IMG/VR virus record: IMGVR_UViG_3300027736_000208 | Location: 1-27,345 of that record | Direction: 5' to 3' (one strand) | Source: a virus | DNA length: 27,345 nucleotides | In this document: piece by piece, positions 1-27,345 of the stretch | How positions within the stretch are numbered: the stretch's first letter is position 1 | How the letters are laid out: every line of letters starts with the position of its first letter | The notes under the pieces: generated by a model | Told to the model about the DNA's origin: nothing | Database searches by the model: none | Seen by the model: only the letters and a program-made list of their open reading frames with translations | Program-made: the position numbers and the translations under genes

Positions 1-80
1 CGCCCGACATTCTTCATGACCTTGGACGCTGCGTCTTTGGCAATGATTGCGAATACTGCCTGACCTGATGCTGAGACCAT
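1..80 (-). CDS. Tape measure protein, N-terminal fragment (left repeat copy)
   Basis: These 80 bases encode the first ~26 residues of the tape measure protein (beginning MVSASGQAVFAIIAKD) and run off the contig edge. The full gene is at 25453..26607. The start abuts the stop of the gp10-like gene, as in the right-hand copy. There are two base differences from the other copy (near positions 3 and 39). This is an assembly-edge fragment, not a broken gene. Confidence 0.85.
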   Translation of the reverse strand, partial: MVSASGQAVFAIIAKDAASKVMKNVG

Positions 81-653
81 CTAGCGACCCCTTCTCTTGA
101 ACTTCAAGATGCGACCTCTGAAGACATCATCGTTGAGGAACTTCTCAATCGTGGCGTAGTAGGCATCCAATGCCCGCTGTTGGATTCCAGGCTGACGAGC
201 AGTCTCGGTGACGAATGGCTTGCCTGCAACCCTGCCGCCTGATGCTGACACCGGCGAGACCTTGCCCGCACCAATGTCTGCCCAACTGATCCCCATGATA
301 TTACGCCCGCTCTTCGGTCCTCGGACCTTGTGTCCACTTGTGACCATCCAGCGGTACCATGCGCCGTCGGTATCACCTCGGCTCTTGCCTGGACGCGGAC
401 CGACTGTTGCTGATGGTTGCTGATAGCGGCCGCCCTTTGCGCTGACAGATCGGGAGAGCCGTCCTGTTCGGTTTGGTGCAGCAGCTTGCATTGGCTTGAC
501 CATCGTGCGTGCAGCGTTCATTGAGGCAAAGGTCATCAGGCGCTTATAGGCGCGAGGGTTGCCGCCCTGGAGGAAGCCTAGTTGCAGATTGTCGTATGAT
601 TTCTCAAACTTGACCTGCAACTGTATCTGCGATTGCGCGTTTGGCTTTCCCAC
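81..653 (-). CDS. HK97 gp10-like tail protein (left repeat copy)
   Basis: A 190-aa basic protein. Residues 44-75 contain the pattern of the HK97 gp10 family: a helix rich in Ala/Met, then AAPNRTGRLSRSV, then a small beta-rich core. A KPFVTETA segment lies near residue 147, where the family usually has a conserved Pro-Phe. Family members act at the head-tail joint or in tail completion. The GTG start overlaps the stop of the second tail-chaperone frame (TAGTG), and the stop abuts the tape-measure ATG. The position between chaperone and tape measure is unusual, since this family normally lies upstream of the major tail protein. It differs from the copy at 26608..27180 only at residues 10 (Ile/Thr) and 44 (Met/Val). 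Confidence 0.75.
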   Translation of the reverse strand: MGKPNAQSQIQLQVKFEKSYDNLQLGFLQGGNPRAYKRLMTFASMNAARTMVKPMQAAAPNRTGRLSRSVSAKGGRYQQPSATVGPRPGKSRGDTDGAWYRWMVTSGHKVRGPKSGRNIMGISWADIGAGKVSPVSASGGRVAGKPFVTETARQPGIQQRALDAYYATIEKFLNDDVFRGRILKFKRRGR

Positions 654-862
654 TATTTATCCTTTGGCTGCATCTCCGCAAACAGTTGCCATGCTTTGGC
701 TACTTGTTCAACCGGTAGGCTCGCAACTTCTTCTGGCCACATTCCGAACTCTTTGCCTAGAAGATGAAAGATGATCTCAGCGGGTGGAGCGATTGACTGA
801 CCAATCGCCAGCCGCCTGGCTGCGAGCCTTACTTGGGGTCCAGGGTGTTCGCCTCTGACCAC
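653..862 (-). CDS. Tail assembly chaperone, frameshifted second part (gpT-like)
   Basis: An open frame of up to 69 aa that overlaps the end of the gpG-like gene and ends with TAG overlapping the gp10-like GTG. Only a GTG at 862 could start it alone, with no convincing ribosome site, because this stretch is inside the upstream gene. A -1 slip at the CCCC just before the upstream stop would continue into this frame at CAA (835..833). That would give a fusion of 86 + 60 = 146 residues. This is the standard G/GT arrangement of siphoviruses, where the extended protein helps load tail subunits on the tape measure. The C-terminal part (FGMWPEEVASLPVEQVAKAW) is like the short helical T domains that follow slippery sites. 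Expression as a fusion is inferred. Confidence 0.68.
   Translation of the reverse strand: MVRGEHPGPQVRLAARRLAIGQSIAPPAEIIFHLLGKEFGMWPEEVASLPVEQVAKAWQLFAEMQPKDK
829..838 (-). other. Putative -1 ribosomal frameshift site
   Basis: In the gpG frame the minus strand reads GAC CCC AAG TAA. The proline codon can slip back one base on the run of four C and resume at CAA GTA AGG, which is the gpT-like frame. A rare-type slip run placed directly before a stop is a known frameshift arrangement. It is not a perfect XXXYYYZ heptamer, so the exact slip position is an inference from the frame relation and the gene order. Confidence 0.55.
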
Positions 863-16593: not shown

Positions 16594-17334
16594 CTAGAAC
16601 GGCAACGACTCCAAGTCATCCTCTGGCTTGACCGGAGCAGGCGCTGCGACTGGCGCAGCCTGCTGGTTGATCCACGCAATGGCTGGCTTCTTCTTGCAGA
16701 ACTGGCCGTCAGTCCGACCTGTGCAAGACCAGAAGGCGTTGTACGGCTTGCCTGTTGCCTTGCTCACGCCTGCTGGCTTGAGTTCCCATGCCTGGTCGTG
16801 ATCTGGACAGAGACCCTGACCGAACATCATGGCTGCTGCCAGAGCGACCTGTGCCTGCTCGTCACCGATAGGTGCCGATGGGATGCTCCGAGGCAGTACC
16901 AACTCGTCTGCCACAGGCACGCTAGAACGCGCTGGGAGGCGTGTAGGAGCCACGGAGAGCGCCGTTTGCGTCGGATTGGTATACAGAGACCTCCCCACGC
17001 CAAACTGCGCTGCACAGCGGCGTAGCGCGTCTGTCGCGCCTTCCTTCAGCGGCTCCATGGCCTCGGCACCATTCGGGTAGCCGAAGTCTTCGCGCTGCAC
17101 GCTCTTGCCGCCGATGACGGCGGTGAGCGTTCCCTTCACGACATGCTTGGCGAGGTCAGCGACCTGCACCTCGAACTGCCAGCCGTCAATGCCGAGAACA
17201 TCGTCAAGGCGCTGTGCGACTGAACGAGCATCAACATAAGTGAAGGTGTTGCCACCTCGCCCTGGTCGGCTCTTCAACTCCTCTGGCTTGAACGGTGCAG
17301 CCAACGCGGCTGCGATTGTCTTCTGGTCAGTCAT
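16594..17334 (-). CDS. Rad52-type single-strand annealing protein with zinc ribbon
   Basis: A 246-aa recombinase. Residues 1-125 carry the Rad52/22 domain: AALAAPFKPEELKSRPG, NTFTYVDARSVAQRLDDVLG, WQFEV, GTLTAVIGGKSVQREDFGYP and the helix ALRRCAAQFGVGRSLY. Residues ~175-225 hold a zinc-ribbon (CPDHDQAW, AGVSKATGKPY, FWSCTGRTDG, FCKKKP), found on several phage annealing proteins and primases. The C-terminus is Ala/Pro-rich and ends EDDLESLPF, an acidic-aromatic tail like those of ssDNA-binding proteins. With the YqaJ-like exonuclease upstream it forms a two-component recombination system. The ATG at 17334 overlaps the exonuclease end by eight bases; the frame extends further upstream within that gene. 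Confidence 0.88.
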   Translation of the reverse strand: MTDQKTIAAALAAPFKPEELKSRPGRGGNTFTYVDARSVAQRLDDVLGIDGWQFEVQVADLAKHVVKGTLTAVIGGKSVQREDFGYPNGAEAMEPLKEGATDALRRCAAQFGVGRSLYTNPTQTALSVAPTRLPARSSVPVADELVLPRSIPSAPIGDEQAQVALAAAMMFGQGLCPDHDQAWELKPAGVSKATGKPYNAFWSCTGRTDGQFCKKKPAIAWINQQAAPVAAPAPVKPEDDLESLPF

Positions 17335-18277
17335 TCGTGACCTCCTTCTGCTTGAACCTAAACACCCGCGCACCTGGAGTCTCCAAGGTGTACGCATTCA
17401 CGGTGTCCGGTGCGATCTTCTCCTCTACCGCGAGGCGCTGCCAATCCACCTTGCGGCTTGGCTTGTTCTGCTTCCACGACGCGCTCCAGCCGTCTCCGAT
17501 GATCCCCTCCTTCTCTGCGATGCACTCCTTGATTGCGATGGCGTGTGTCGCCAACTCTTCCTCCAGGAGTTTGATCTCATACGCGCAGTCTGCGTATCGC
17601 TGACCGATGCGGTTGAGGTCACCCTCAGCGACGGCCATGTCGGACAGCCGCTGCGGAGTCATCTCCTCGAAGGTAGCCGAGTCGGCTGCCATCATGCTCG
17701 GCATCTCGCCCTTGGCAAGTGCCTCACGGAATGCGACAGCGCGCTGGAAGAGTTGCGTGTGGTAGATCGGATCAGCCTCAACCCGCACGATGCGGAAGAC
17801 CAGATTGCCGAGCAGCGCCACAACATCACACCATTGCGCGCCGGTGACGAAGAGTTGCCATTGCACCTGTGCCGTCACGAGCGGCGGGATTGGCTGAAGG
17901 TCCCACGCCCTGCTCGTTGAGGTCTTGATCTCAACGATGCCATCAGGCTCACCAACGATGGTGCGGTCCAAGGATGCCATTGCCCAGGGATGCGCCTTGA
18001 GGCGCACGATGCCATTGCTCTGGCGCAGTTTGACCTTGCGCTCCTGCTCGTAATACTTCGCCACGGCATCTTCTAGCAGCCGACCTCGATCAGCGGCCAC
18101 ACCGGCTGCCTGCTCCATGACCTTGCCGCTCTTCTCTGCGAAGAGTCGGAATGGGGTCTTGTACGGTGACAGACCAGAGATGACTGCGATGTCGGTCGCG
18201 GTGATCGCATCCTTGCGGAGTGCGAACCATTCAGGACTGCGCTGCGGGGCCTTGATAAACTCGTATCGCTTGCTCAC
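17327..18277 (-). CDS. YqaJ-like exonuclease (phage recombinase)
   Basis: A 316-aa PD-(D/E)XK nuclease. It opens with APQRSPEWFALRKDAITATDIAVISGLSPY-type family signature (residues 8-37), has RGRLLEDAVAKYYE (Glu) and the catalytic GEPDGIVEIKTST (Asp, Glu-Ile-Lys). GTAQVQWQLFV-like VTAQVQWQLFVTG follows. The C-terminal third is a coiled-coil-like helix region (DLNRIGQRYADCAYEIKLLEEELATH) ending in a basic tail. It should digest one strand to expose ssDNA for the downstream annealing protein. GTG at 18277 is chosen because it overlaps the upstream stop (GTGA). Length is normal for the family. Confidence 0.88.
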   Translation of the reverse strand: MSKRYEFIKAPQRSPEWFALRKDAITATDIAVISGLSPYKTPFRLFAEKSGKVMEQAAGVAADRGRLLEDAVAKYYEQERKVKLRQSNGIVRLKAHPWAMASLDRTIVGEPDGIVEIKTSTSRAWDLQPIPPLVTAQVQWQLFVTGAQWCDVVALLGNLVFRIVRVEADPIYHTQLFQRAVAFREALAKGEMPSMMAADSATFEEMTPQRLSDMAVAEGDLNRIGQRYADCAYEIKLLEEELATHAIAIKECIAEKEGIIGDGWSASWKQNKPSRKVDWQRLAVEEKIAPDTVNAYTLETPGARVFRFKQKEVTND

Positions 18278-18480
18278 TTGCTCACCTCCACTTTCTTCAT
18301 CGCTTCGGCAAGCCGTTGCTTTGCCTCGACATACTTCTTCTTGTTGCCTGCATCGGCATAGATGCCGACGACCTTCTTCCAATGACTAGCCTCACACTTC
18401 GGACAGAGGCGCTCCATGATGCTCACGCCCACAGGTGCCTCCATCTTCCAACAGACCACGCACTTCGCGCCCTTACTCAT
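18274..18480 (-). CDS. Zinc-knuckle microprotein (array member 4)
   Basis: A 68-aa protein starting at ATG 18480, eight bases inside the previous gene, and ending in a GTGA overlap with the exonuclease. CVVCWKMEAP (CxxC) and RLCPKCEASH (CxxC) make a four-Cys ribbon in the first 32 residues. The remainder is a long basic helix (NKKKYVEAKQRLAEAMKKVEV). This is consistent with a nucleic-acid or protein-binding accessory factor. It belongs to a run of four adjacent Cys-rich microgenes. Confidence 0.65.
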   Translation of the reverse strand: MSKGAKCVVCWKMEAPVGVSIMERLCPKCEASHWKKVVGIYADAGNKKKYVEAKQRLAEAMKKVEVSK

Positions 18481-18637
18481 TGACTCCATCCTCCTCATAA
18501 CTGCACTCCTCACACTCCTCTGGGATACCGAGTGCCTTGTCGCACATGCCACAGATTGCGGTGTGTTCGCAGACTGGCTCCTCTTTCTTTTCGCCTGGCT
18601 GTCCGCAGATCGGACAATCTTGCACCTGTTCTGGCAT
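18473..18637 (-). CDS. Zinc-knuckle microprotein (array member 3)
   Basis: A 54-aa acidic protein with four CxxC pairs or near-pairs: DCPICGQPG, VCEHTAICGMCDKALG and PEECEECSYEE, which gives nine Cys/His in 54 residues, enough for two zinc sites. It starts at ATG 18637 in a TGATG overlap and its TAA lies inside the next gene's start (ATGAGTAA). Almost nothing else is in the protein. The density of ligands and the two-sided overlaps make it a real gene; its partner is unknown. Confidence 0.65.
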   Translation of the reverse strand: MPEQVQDCPICGQPGEKKEEPVCEHTAICGMCDKALGIPEECEECSYEEDGVNE

Positions 18638-18858
18638 CAGTTGCTCCTCGATGCGGGTCGCTTCTTGGCGCGCTTGATTGCCTTCTTGACTGCGGCCTTC
18701 GCATAGAACCGAGCAAGCGAGCGGTCAATGACAGACTGGCAATCAACGCAGATGCGCTGATATGGATTGCTGACGATGCGACCAAGACCTTCGCGGCAGC
18801 GGTTGCAGCGGCTCGTGATGTCTGAATCGTCGTGGATCATTCCGTTGAACTGGCTCAC
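18637..18858 (-). CDS. Zinc-knuckle microprotein with basic tail (array member 2)
   Basis: A 73-aa protein with SRCNRCREGLGRI and RICVDCQSVID (two CxxC pairs) followed by a strongly basic helix (AKAAVKKAIKRAKKRPASRSN). The GTG at 18858 overlaps the FmdB-like stop (GTGA); a longer frame is open upstream, but it would overlap the neighbouring gene. The basic tail suggests nucleic-acid binding. A transcription or RNA-related factor is a reasonable guess, not shown. Confidence 0.65.
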   Translation of the reverse strand: MSQFNGMIHDDSDITSRCNRCREGLGRIVSNPYQRICVDCQSVIDRSLARFYAKAAVKKAIKRAKKRPASRSN

Positions 18859-19040
18859 TTCTTCTTCCTCCGATCTTTCTTTGCCCAACCGGCACCCTTC
18901 AGTACGACGGCTGGAGTGTTGATGCTCAACTGCATCCATACGCCACACTTGTCACAGCGTGGAACGACTGGCTCATAGCCAACCTGGAGGCGCTCCTCGA
19001 TCTGCTTGCAGGTGCCGCAGACAAACTGGTAGAGCGGCAT
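18855..19040 (-). CDS. FmdB-like zinc-ribbon protein (array member 1)
   Basis: A 61-aa protein that begins MPLYQFVCGTCKQIEE and has VPRCDKCGVWMQL: this matches the FmdB/zinc-ribbon family, whose members read M-P-L-Y-E-(F/Y)-x-C-x-x-C at the start and a second C-x-x-C about 20 residues later. It ends in KKDRRKKK. FmdB-type proteins are thought to be regulators, though their action is not well established. It starts in a TGATG overlap and is the first member of the Cys-rich run. Confidence 0.75.
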   Translation of the reverse strand: MPLYQFVCGTCKQIEERLQVGYEPVVPRCDKCGVWMQLSINTPAVVLKGAGWAKKDRRKKK

Positions 19041-19204
19041 CAGCGAGTGATTGACCAGACGAACATCACGACGAGCCAGATGGCCATCAGGACTGCGGTG
19101 AAGAGCATGCGCTCCTGCTGATGCTGCTTGCGCTCCAGTCGCGCAAAGTCATTGAAGCGTGAACGCACGACCATCTTTGGCGTGGACTTGCGGTTGACTT
19201 TCAT
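19040..19204 (-). CDS. Basic/membrane microprotein 2
   Basis: A 54-aa protein (ATG 19204, stop TGA at 19040). The first 30 residues are basic and polar (MKVNRKSTPKMVVRSR and DFARLERKQHQQER), followed by one membrane helix MLFTAVLMAIWLVVMFVWSI. It has the same plan as the protein just upstream (basic head, R-K/Q-rich linker, C-terminal helix), so the two may be paralogues. It overlaps that gene by ATGA and the FmdB-like gene by TGATG. Role unknown; the plan fits a tail-anchored membrane protein. Confidence 0.7.
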   Translation of the reverse strand: MKVNRKSTPKMVVRSRFNDFARLERKQHQQERMLFTAVLMAIWLVVMFVWSITR

Positions 19205-19443
19205 CACTCTCCTCCAATCAAGATCGGCAATACGAACATGCCGAATGCCAATACCATCAACGCGAGCAACATCAAGAGACGCTGCTGCTGATCGTATTCA
19301 TCGCGGGTCTTCTGCTCTTTCCAAGTAAGCAGTCCGACAAACTCGGACGCAGCGCGCTTGCGATTGTCCGGTGTCGTTGGATCGTAGTAGCGAAGAGTGC
19401 GGCCACTCTTGCTCACGCTGAATGTCTGAACTTTCCTCTTCAC
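19204..19443 (-). CDS. Basic/membrane microprotein 1, first gene of the operon
   Basis: A 79-aa protein with a basic N-terminal half (MKRKVQTFSVSKSGRTLRYY, DNRKRAAS), a KEQKTRDEYDQQQR linker and a C-terminal membrane helix LLMLLALMVLAFGMFVLPILI. It is the first gene after the promoter, so it should be among the earliest phage products. The GTG start lies four bases after a perfect AGGAGG, at the foot of a leader hairpin. Host takeover or membrane exclusion are possible roles. The neighbouring 54-aa gene has the same architecture. Confidence 0.72.
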   Translation of the reverse strand: MKRKVQTFSVSKSGRTLRYYDPTTPDNRKRAASEFVGLLTWKEQKTRDEYDQQQRLLMLLALMVLAFGMFVLPILIGGE

Positions 19444-19493: not shown

Positions 19494-19523
19494 ATCATAC
19501 GCCTAACGGATTCTGCGCGTCAA
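19494..19523 (-). promoter_or_regulatory. Sigma70-type promoter
   Basis: On the minus strand TTGACG (19518..19523) and TATGAT (19494..19499) are separated by 18 bases. Each box matches its consensus at five of six positions. Transcription would start near 19487, just ahead of the leader hairpin of the first early gene. It is the only promoter of this quality I found, and it lies in the 142-base gap (19444..19585), the largest non-coding gap. Confidence 0.78.
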
Positions 19524-19544: not shown

Positions 19545-19574
19545 CCCCTGCTGGGGGAGGATGCCCAGCAGGGG
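19545..19574 (-). terminator. 11-bp hairpin at the end of the lysis block
   Basis: Plus-strand bases 19545..19555 (CCCCTGCTGGG) pair perfectly with 19564..19574 (CCCAGCAGGGG), with an 8-base loop. It lies 11 bases after the last gene's stop and 22 bases before the -35 box of the operon promoter. There is no U-run on either strand, so termination may need a factor. On the circular map it separates the end of the transcription unit from its start. Confidence 0.65.
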
Positions 19575-25452: not shown

Positions 25453-26607
25453 TTACGGATTCCGCGATGTGTTTCGTAGCCGGTCAATGCTGCTGCTTAC
25501 CATCTCATCTTGCTTCTGCGTGCCGATGTTGAACTGGACGCTCGTGTTGATCACCCCGCCGTTGACTCCTGGCACCATGCCTGGCACGGATACGCCGCTG
25601 CCAAAGCCGATGCGTGCGCCTGCTGCGCCACCTATTGCATCTCCGAGTTGCCCGAGAAGTTCCAGCACTCGCTCAATGATCTTGATGAGATCGGTAAGAA
25701 TCTGAACAAAGATCCCAACGCCAGCCGAAGCAATCTCAAATGCTGCACCGATCAACTTGGTCACAACAACAAGCGGGGAACCTTCCCCATCCCCAAGTCG
25801 ATCCATTAGTTTCTTTACCGCGTCAATCAACGGCTGAAACATCTTTGCTGCGTCATCTAGCGCAGTGCTGAAGATGTCAATGGCTGCGCTGATGAATGGC
25901 ATGACTCGCTTGCTGAAGAATGTGAGCAGTTCGTTGACCACCGGCAGGAACCTGTAGCCGAGTTTCTCAAACGCTTCATTGAGTTGGATCTGCGCCGTGG
26001 CGAACCGCCCAGCCGTGGTCTTGCTGTATGCCTCTGCCGCACCACGAGTCTTGTTGGTGATGGCGTTCAGTACCTCCTGCCCCTTGATGCCTTTCTTCGT
26101 GATACCGAGTGAGACAAGAAGGCGTGATCCTGTTCCCTTGTACGCCTTGCCAACATTGAGTGTCGCTGTGGCAAGGTCTTGCCCAGTCGTGCGCGATACC
26201 TGCTGTGCGATCTGCGCGATCTTCTGCGCCTTGGCAAAGTCTTTTGTGAAGCGTGTCGCGTTCTCAAGACTGGCGCGAACCTCATCATCGGTGAAGCCGA
26301 GGTTCTGACCTGCTGCGATGGATTTGTTGATCTCCTCTGTCAGGTTCTTCTGCGCGAATCCGCGAGCCTTGAGAGCAGAGAGGAGGCGTGTGGTTGATGC
26401 CTCATCTTCTATGGCAGCGTTGACCGAGGCAATGCCCATGGCAACGAGTGCAGCGGCGGCTGCTACGGCCGCAACCTTGATTGCAGCGAATGCCTGCTCG
26501 CCAGCACTCTTCATGCCGCCGAAACTGCGTCCGACATTCTTCATGACCTTGGACGCTGCGTCTTTAGCAATGATTGCGAATACTGCCTGACCTGATGCTG
26601 AGACCAT
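25453..26607 (-). CDS. Tape measure protein (short)
   Basis: A 384-aa helical protein. Residues ~1-35 are the conserved start (MVSASGQAVFAIIAKD, then SKVMKNVGRSFGGM). A hydrophobic helix follows at ~42-62 (AAVAAAAALVAMGIASVNAAI), then GFAQKNLTEEINKSIAAGQN and VSRTTGQDLATATLNVGKAY, a pattern found in many tape measures. A second hydrophobic helical stretch covers ~285-325 (EIASAGVGIFVQILTDLIK). No lytic domain is seen. At ~0.15 nm per residue a tail of roughly 55-60 nm would be expected, which is short for a siphovirus. The end of the protein (VQFNIGTQKQDEMV) is probably the tip-binding part. An 80-base piece of its 5' end is repeated at 1..80. Confidence 0.8.
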   Translation of the reverse strand: MVSASGQAVFAIIAKDAASKVMKNVGRSFGGMKSAGEQAFAAIKVAAVAAAAALVAMGIASVNAAIEDEASTTRLLSALKARGFAQKNLTEEINKSIAAGQNLGFTDDEVRASLENATRFTKDFAKAQKIAQIAQQVSRTTGQDLATATLNVGKAYKGTGSRLLVSLGITKKGIKGQEVLNAITNKTRGAAEAYSKTTAGRFATAQIQLNEAFEKLGYRFLPVVNELLTFFSKRVMPFISAAIDIFSTALDDAAKMFQPLIDAVKKLMDRLGDGEGSPLVVVTKLIGAAFEIASAGVGIFVQILTDLIKIIERVLELLGQLGDAIGGAAGARIGFGSGVSVPGMVPGVNGGVINTSVQFNIGTQKQDEMVSSSIDRLRNTSRNP

Positions 26608-27180
26608 CTAGCGACCCCTTCTCTTGAACTTCAAGATGCGACCTCTGAAGACATCATCATTGAGGAACTTCTCAATCGTGGCGTAGTAGGCATCCAATGC
26701 TCGCTGTTGGATTCCAGGTTGACGAGCAGTCTCGGTGACGAATGGCTTGCCTGCAACCCTGCCGCCCGATGCTGACACCGGCGAGACCTTGCCCGCTCCA
26801 ATGTCTGCCCAACTGATCCCCATGATATTACGCCCGCTCTTAGGTCCTCGCACCTTGTGTCCACTTGTGACCATCCAGCGGTACCACGCGCCGTCGGTAT
26901 CACCTCGGCTCTTGCCTGGTCGCGGACCGACTGTTGCTGATGGTTGCTGGTAGCGGCCGCCCTTTGCGCTGACAGATCGAGAGAGCCGTCCTGTACGGTT
27001 TGGTGCAGCAGCCTGCATTGGCTTGACCATCGTGCGTGCAGCGTTCACTGAGGCAAAAGTCATCAGGCGCTTATAGGCGCGAGGGTTGCCGCCCTGGAGG
27101 AAGCCCAGTTGCAGATTGTCGTATGACTTCTCAAACTTGACCTGCAACTGCGTCTGCGATTGAGCGTTTGGCTTTCCCAC
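26608..27180 (-). CDS. HK97 gp10-like tail protein (right repeat copy)
   Basis: Same gene as 81..653, 190 aa, with Thr at residue 10 and Val at residue 44. Twenty base differences separate the copies inside the gene, and all but those in these two codons are synonymous. The GTG overlaps the TAG of the second tail-chaperone frame; the tape measure follows directly. Because the contig is circular this is one gene seen in two strains, not a duplicated gene. Confidence 0.75.
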   Translation of the reverse strand: MGKPNAQSQTQLQVKFEKSYDNLQLGFLQGGNPRAYKRLMTFASVNAARTMVKPMQAAAPNRTGRLSRSVSAKGGRYQQPSATVGPRPGKSRGDTDGAWYRWMVTSGHKVRGPKSGRNIMGISWADIGAGKVSPVSASGGRVAGKPFVTETARQPGIQQRALDAYYATIEKFLNDDVFRGRILKFKRRGR

Positions 27181-27345
27181 TATTTATCCTTTGGCTGCAT
27201 CTCTGCAAACAGTTGCCATGCTTTGGCCACTTGTTCAACCGGTAGGCTCGCAACTTCTTCTGGCCACATTCCGAACTCTTTGCCTAGAAGATGAAAGATG
27301 ATCTCAGCGGGTGGAGCGATTGACTGACCAATCGCCAGCCGCCTG
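27180..27345 (-). CDS. Tail assembly chaperone second part, partial (right repeat copy)
   Basis: The distal part of the gpT-like frame, truncated by the contig edge. It corresponds to 653..818. Two silent differences are seen from the left copy. The slippery site is not included in this copy. Confidence 0.65.
   Translation of the reverse strand, partial: RRLAIGQSIAPPAEIIFHLLGKEFGMWPEEVASLPVEQVAKAWQLFAEMQPKDK

Follow-up and report, generated by a model that had tools for sequence, protein, structure and literature searches.

Cysteine-rich microprotein genes in the early region of an uncultured phage: a constant FmdB-type member and a possible exchangeable counter-defence slot before the recombination genes

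The DNA analysed here, referred to as the window, is the whole of IMG/VR record IMGVR_UViG_3300027736_000208 (27,345 bases). Its two ends carry an imperfect repeat (1..818 versus 26528..27345, 97% over 818 bases); the molecule is either almost circular or terminally redundant, the overlap varying between strains. On account of this repeat, the record can be considered a nearly complete genome, about 26.5 kb in length. Every credible gene of the window is carried by the minus strand. The terminase is nearest to that of Pontimonas phage phiPsal1 (44%) and also to those of Streptomyces phages, and one phage contig with an FmdB-type gene (L130) sits in a genome from the phylum of a Chloroflexota MAG. 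The features of the early region are collected in Table 1.

Table 1. Genes and signals of the early region, with positions in the window.
Feature	Position	Strand	Description
P1	18855..19040	-	61 aa, 2 CxxC; FmdB/Ruc-type zinc ribbon; constant member of the array
P2	18637..18858	-	73 aa, 2 CxxC; CxxC-x15-CxxC finger, basic helical C-terminus
P3	18473..18637	-	54 aa, acidic, 7 Cys, 3 CxxC
P4	18274..18480	-	68 aa, CxxC + RLCxxCxxxH knuckle, then helical hairpin
YqaJ-type recombination exonuclease	17327..18277	-	316 aa; start overlaps P4 stop
Rad52/Erf-like single-strand annealing protein	16594..17334	-	downstream of exonuclease
Small membrane protein	19040..19204	-	54 aa, coupled to P1, conserved upstream partner
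First gene of early unit	19204..19443	-	79 aa, without Cys
Early promoter TTGACG-18-TATGAT	19494..19523	-	sigma-70-type; position conserved in relatives
Hairpin between P5 and promoter	19545..19574	-	11 bp, terminator-like, without T run
P5	19586..19780	-	64 aa, 2 CxxC, conserved family
P6	13599..13805	-	68 aa, CxxC...HxxC; core protein conserved in relatives, located farther along the early region

A sequence-only reading of the window had described four adjacent, overlapping genes at 18274..19040, each encoding two or more CxxC pairs, and this description is confirmed. P1 to P4 are consecutive and successive genes overlap by 1-8 nt. Their placement directly upstream of recombination genes is likewise correct, as P4 overlaps the start of the YqaJ exonuclease by 4 nt and the Rad52-like annealer follows. 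Early expression had also been proposed: the array indeed lies behind a sigma-70-type promoter, the P1 start codon being 454 nt downstream of it, but the proposal is not supported for P5. In many relatives, a perfect palindrome, CGTGACGTCACG, is located inside the spacer of the early promoter (for instance L063:4034 and L083:3885), a further half-site following the -10; it is a likely operator. The first gene of the unit looks chimeric: the N-terminal half of its product resembles L163-type genes, and the membrane half corresponds to a distinct gene of 35 aa in L002.

The two additional small cysteine proteins noticed by the same reading, P5 and P6, both exist and are conserved. Four cysteines are invariant in 29 aligned members of the P5 family. 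A hairpin and the promoter stand between P5 and the array; a terminator scan based on a T-run rule found none in the window, but the hairpin is present nonetheless and recurs in several relatives. The order of a P5-like gene, often a hairpin and then the promoter is also found again in relatives, which suggests that P5 is the last gene of the preceding unit and is probably outside the early one. P6 displays one CxxC and one HxxC that are retained across about 40 relatives. Its gene is a constant component of the early region and, alone of the two, lies downstream of the early promoter. P4, P5 and P6 gave no match above cut-off in Pfam (all three), PHROGs or NCBIfam.

Relatives were collected by an exonuclease-alignment scan, in which 425 were found and 80 of them fetched. 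All four genes of the array are called on codon usage alone, and the cysteine content of the array reaches 7.4%, compared to 0.29% in late genes. The raw number of short ORFs with at least two CxxC only modestly exceeds that of random sequence (6 in the window; random-sequence mean 2.6, maximum 9). P1 to P4 are therefore considered as coding because they are conserved and not because of this count. The dN/dS values obtained with L002, the one relative compared, are 0.15 for P1, 0.23 for P2, 0.09 for P3 and 0.24 for P4, indicating purifying selection on all four genes. Together with the invariant cysteines, this selection rules out chance ORFs. The relatives were checked for the stops and lost cysteines against which the original proposal had been staked; the frames contain no stops and the cysteines are conserved. 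The strong sequence difference noted among the members is also real, since profile comparisons gave no convincing homology. The weak P2-P4 result (probability 19, pairwise E 0.0012) is not claimed as homology. An origin of the array as internal duplicates of one ancestor was considered and rejected, the P1-P4 and P4-P5 profile comparisons having given nothing.

P1 carries a CxxC-x17-CxxC arrangement near its N-terminus and a short basic GxGWAKKDRR tail. Its description as FmdB-like is supported by matches, just under the curated cut-offs, to TIGR02605 (E 1.7e-7, 31.2 bits for a cut-off of 31.3) and to PF09723 or Zn_ribbon_8 (E 3e-7, 30.8 bits for a cut-off of 34.4). It is present in 70 of the 75 relatives whose contigs hold enough sequence. 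Homologues down to 33% identity keep the first cysteine pair and mostly the second. FmdB-type proteins are already known in phages (PHROG 1076), and a search of isolated phages gave no match for the P1 homologues. P1 stands immediately before the exonuclease in many contigs, and is also found far from it, beside a glycosyltransferase (L018, L130). In L130 (G148), the glycosyltransferase, a three-CxxC protein and the FmdB-like protein are side by side, which places P1 together with its upstream partner at a different position of the genome.

The characterised FmdB relative Ruc (Rv0991c) is a chaperone (PMC7448276), and P1 could by analogy be a redox-regulated chaperone protecting early phage or host proteins, a role which appears very unlikely. 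The cysteines of P1 (C8, C11, C29 and C32) occupy the very residue numbers of those of Ruc, the N-terminal parts are similar (PMC7448276), and FmdB-type proteins are widespread among bacteria, with matches in 150 of the 151 genomes sampled from the phylum of a Chloroflexota MAG. However, the Ruc residues after 49, which form a disordered C-terminal region, are required for chaperone activity (PMC7448276), whereas about 12 residues follow the zinc domain in P1, which lacks such a long tail. Moreover, the L038 homologue has kept the GWAKKDRR tail but lost the second cysteine pair. Since tails of as few as about 7 residues have been reported in Ruc homologues, the short tail of P1 lowers the odds of a Ruc-like role without excluding it. 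P1 also departs from the FmdB/Ruc family by scores just below the curated cut-offs and by its location in a phage early operon. As it is devoid of the C-terminal region needed by Ruc, it is taken as an FmdB relative with another role.

The evidence is thinner for P2 and P3 and comes from two contigs, the window and L002, the latter being the only one in which the scans found relatives of these proteins. For P2 to P5, no known family was matched above threshold in the profile libraries searched. The comparison of P3 with the Lar restriction alleviation profile gave an E of 0.21 and 12.3 bits, below the cut-off of 28.6. P2 approaches the DksA/TraR C4 zinc finger (PF01258; E 0.009, 16.4 bits, below the cut-off of 24.9), with which it shares two CxxC pairs and a predicted helix after the second pair. 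It differs from this family by the 15 residues between its pairs and by having 17 residues before the first cysteine, without the TraR-type N-terminal long helix or coiled coil. The AlphaFold model of P2 is of low confidence (55.8) and its fold was not used.

The sequence-only reading had suggested host RNA polymerase as a target. The only hint of it is the sub-threshold match of P2, and for P4 the evidence points elsewhere, namely to its location beside the exonuclease and its exchange for DNA methylases. The broader proposition, of microproteins that redirect transcription by binding host RNA polymerase or sigma factors, is quite unlikely, an RNA polymerase target being possible most of all for P2. 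The early position and the P2 match are consistent with such binding, as is the filing of the P1 family under transcription regulation in PHROGs, but the FmdB 'regulator' is an annotation label and the relative Ruc is a chaperone (PMC7448276). Three of the 29 P5 members weakly match the Gin anti-sigma factor profile (best E 0.01), to which the P5 of the window gave no match; all the P2 and P5 matches are below the curated cut-offs, P5 is probably not early and P2 lacks the TraR helix.

The four cysteines of P4, as well as an Arg-Leu-Cys and a His, are invariant in 29 aligned sequences (the window and 28 homologues), giving an RLCxxCxxxH core. The predicted structure consists of a cysteine knuckle and a helical hairpin (pLDDT 79.9). 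The model matched nothing in the PDB below E 2.4 and, among viral models, only the uncultured-phage homologue A0A6J7X133 (34% identity, E 0.01). The family was found in uncultured phages, and isolated phages gave no match for the P4 homologues. Copies were collected by a P4-only search in which the exonuclease was not used as a criterion, yielding 52 distinct proteins, and in 51 of these P4 directly precedes the exonuclease. The sole exception is L153 (same contig as L003), where a 71-aa gene is inserted between the two.

Such a position, in which P4 overlaps the exonuclease start, is what would be expected if P4, and perhaps P1, were accessory subunits or regulators of the YqaJ exonuclease and annealing pair, for example an exonuclease loader or a Gam-like blocker of a host end-processing nuclease. 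The invariant core followed by a helical hairpin and the presence of P1 directly before the exonuclease in many other contigs agree with this possibility. It is nevertheless considered somewhat unlikely: many phages with a near-identical exonuclease have no P4, which is thus not obligatory, and P1 is distant from the exonuclease in the two contigs where it neighbours a glycosyltransferase.

The interval between P1 and the exonuclease behaves as an exchangeable slot, which contains nothing, P4, a C5 DNA methylase (PF00145, E about 1e-55) or combinations of these; these labels were assigned by simple pattern matching on contigs from metagenomes, in which misassembly can occur. The slot holds P2-P3-P4 in the window and P2-methylase-P3-P4 in L002, a 98% relative. 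The suggested recruitment, with the number and order of genes varying between relatives, is supported. On the exonuclease tree, P4 appears or disappears at least 25 times, compared to 29.7 for shuffled labels, and pairs of exonucleases at least 95% identical have the same slot state in only 45% of cases, a proportion not exceeding that of distant pairs. Exonucleases at least 98.7% identical are even preceded by nothing in L063, by a 519-aa C5 methylase in L071 and by P4 in L083. The P4 site is thus constant, and near-identical exonucleases often differ in slot state, so that the slot is refilled at a higher rate than the exonuclease itself diverges. P4 occurs in 1 of 14 methylase loci (Fisher p 0.014, or 0.033 when dereplicated), an avoidance that is statistically weak and partly forced by the use of one shared site; L002 has both. 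The slot methylases (L057, L062, L065, L071, L090, L095 and L002) have a constant N-terminal half and a length of between 319 and 519 aa, a pattern suggesting an exchange of target-recognition parts.

A shared plan is recognised in dozens of contigs, running from P5 through the hairpin, the promoter, small genes, a membrane protein, P1, the slot and the exonuclease to the annealer. The small genes following the promoter are variable and the membrane protein of the relatives measures 53-56 aa. In 24 dereplicated contigs, the 1.3 kb upstream of the exonuclease contain 47 genes whose products have no more than 130 aa and at least two CxxC (1.5/kb), versus 1 in 80 kb downstream of it (0.012/kb). 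The gene caller favoured CxxC genes slightly everywhere, which does not account for this contrast of about 120-fold. Most of the upstream genes belong to three families (P1, P4 and P5). Over a dozen other families have one or a few members, among which are a CWxC protein of 38 aa and a protein of 65-69 aa with three CxxC, found before P1 in L017, L185, L193 and L203.

A 15-bp sequence, GGCGGTGCGCTGATG, is located at junctions between unrelated small early genes, where stop and start overlap, in L037, L058, L074, L094 and others, 500-2200 bases before the exonuclease. In 600 kb, 41 copies lie on the coding strand versus 3 on the other, and the sequence gives unrelated proteins an identical C-terminal AVR. 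It is possibly a start-associated or cassette-joining sequence. Like the start-associated sequences of cluster K mycobacteriophages (PMC3203893), it is short, conserved and asymmetric and precedes the starts of unrelated non-structural genes; unlike them, it spans overlapping stop and start codons, and it has a different sequence and is absent from the window. In L058, a 25-residue frame, MKRRLGYCWSCTRPETVCICRKAVR, is enclosed between two copies of the junction sequence, from about 2175 to 2098 bases before the exonuclease, and may be a minimal cysteine microprotein.

The fast turnover of the slot and the 15-bp junctions between unrelated small genes could also mean that most of these genes are neutral cargo, or leaders for translation coupling, gathered at a recombination-prone junction. 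This is most improbable in view of dN/dS values of 0.09-0.30, of cysteines that remain invariant in divergent homologues and of the enrichment of CxxC genes at this site, which is not expected of random cargo.

The reading that we favour, with a probability of roughly 40%, is that the array forms the front of an early operon, in which a constant FmdB-type P1 is followed by an exchangeable counter-defence slot placed before the recombination genes and filled here by P2, P3 and P4. Each microprotein would fold around one zinc, perhaps two for P3, and all would be produced at once after phage entry. As methylases occupy the same site, the exchanged content is suggested to protect the incoming DNA or to disarm a host function. 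The slot proteins would accordingly be small binders blunting a host function that threatens this DNA, such as restriction or a host nuclease, or would help the phage exonuclease outcompete it. The constant place of P4 before the exonuclease would be compatible with DNA ends or a host nuclease as its target, although this fixed site fits an exonuclease accessory equally well. P1 would be a tail-less FmdB/Ruc derivative acting by protein or nucleic-acid binding and not as a redox chaperone. A stronger proposition, in which P4 and its slot-mates constitute a new class of zinc-microprotein counter-defence, functionally interchangeable with phage DNA methylases and cassette-swapped at a fixed site between the FmdB-type gene and the exonuclease, is unlikely.

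Most phage microproteins are unannotated. The present locus offers dozens of natural swaps in which near-identical phages carry a tiny putative zinc protein, a DNA methylase or nothing, making the function of such microproteins directly testable. P4, P5 and P6 are proposed as families for which the profile libraries searched gave no confident match. The closest precedent is provided by the HF1-group haloviruses (Serpecor1 and Hardycor2), for which the sections of the publication drawn on here describe numerous CxxC proteins of less than 100 aa outside the structural module, with no function assigned, and a methyltransferase in the genome (PMC7230728). These are archaeal myoviruses, and the same sections mention neither a fixed slot of early genes ahead of the recombination genes, nor a constant member of FmdB type, nor any exchange with methylases. 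In comparison with the open-access literature, the fixed and fast-exchanging slot of bacterial siphoviruses and the P4, P5 and P6 families appear to be new.
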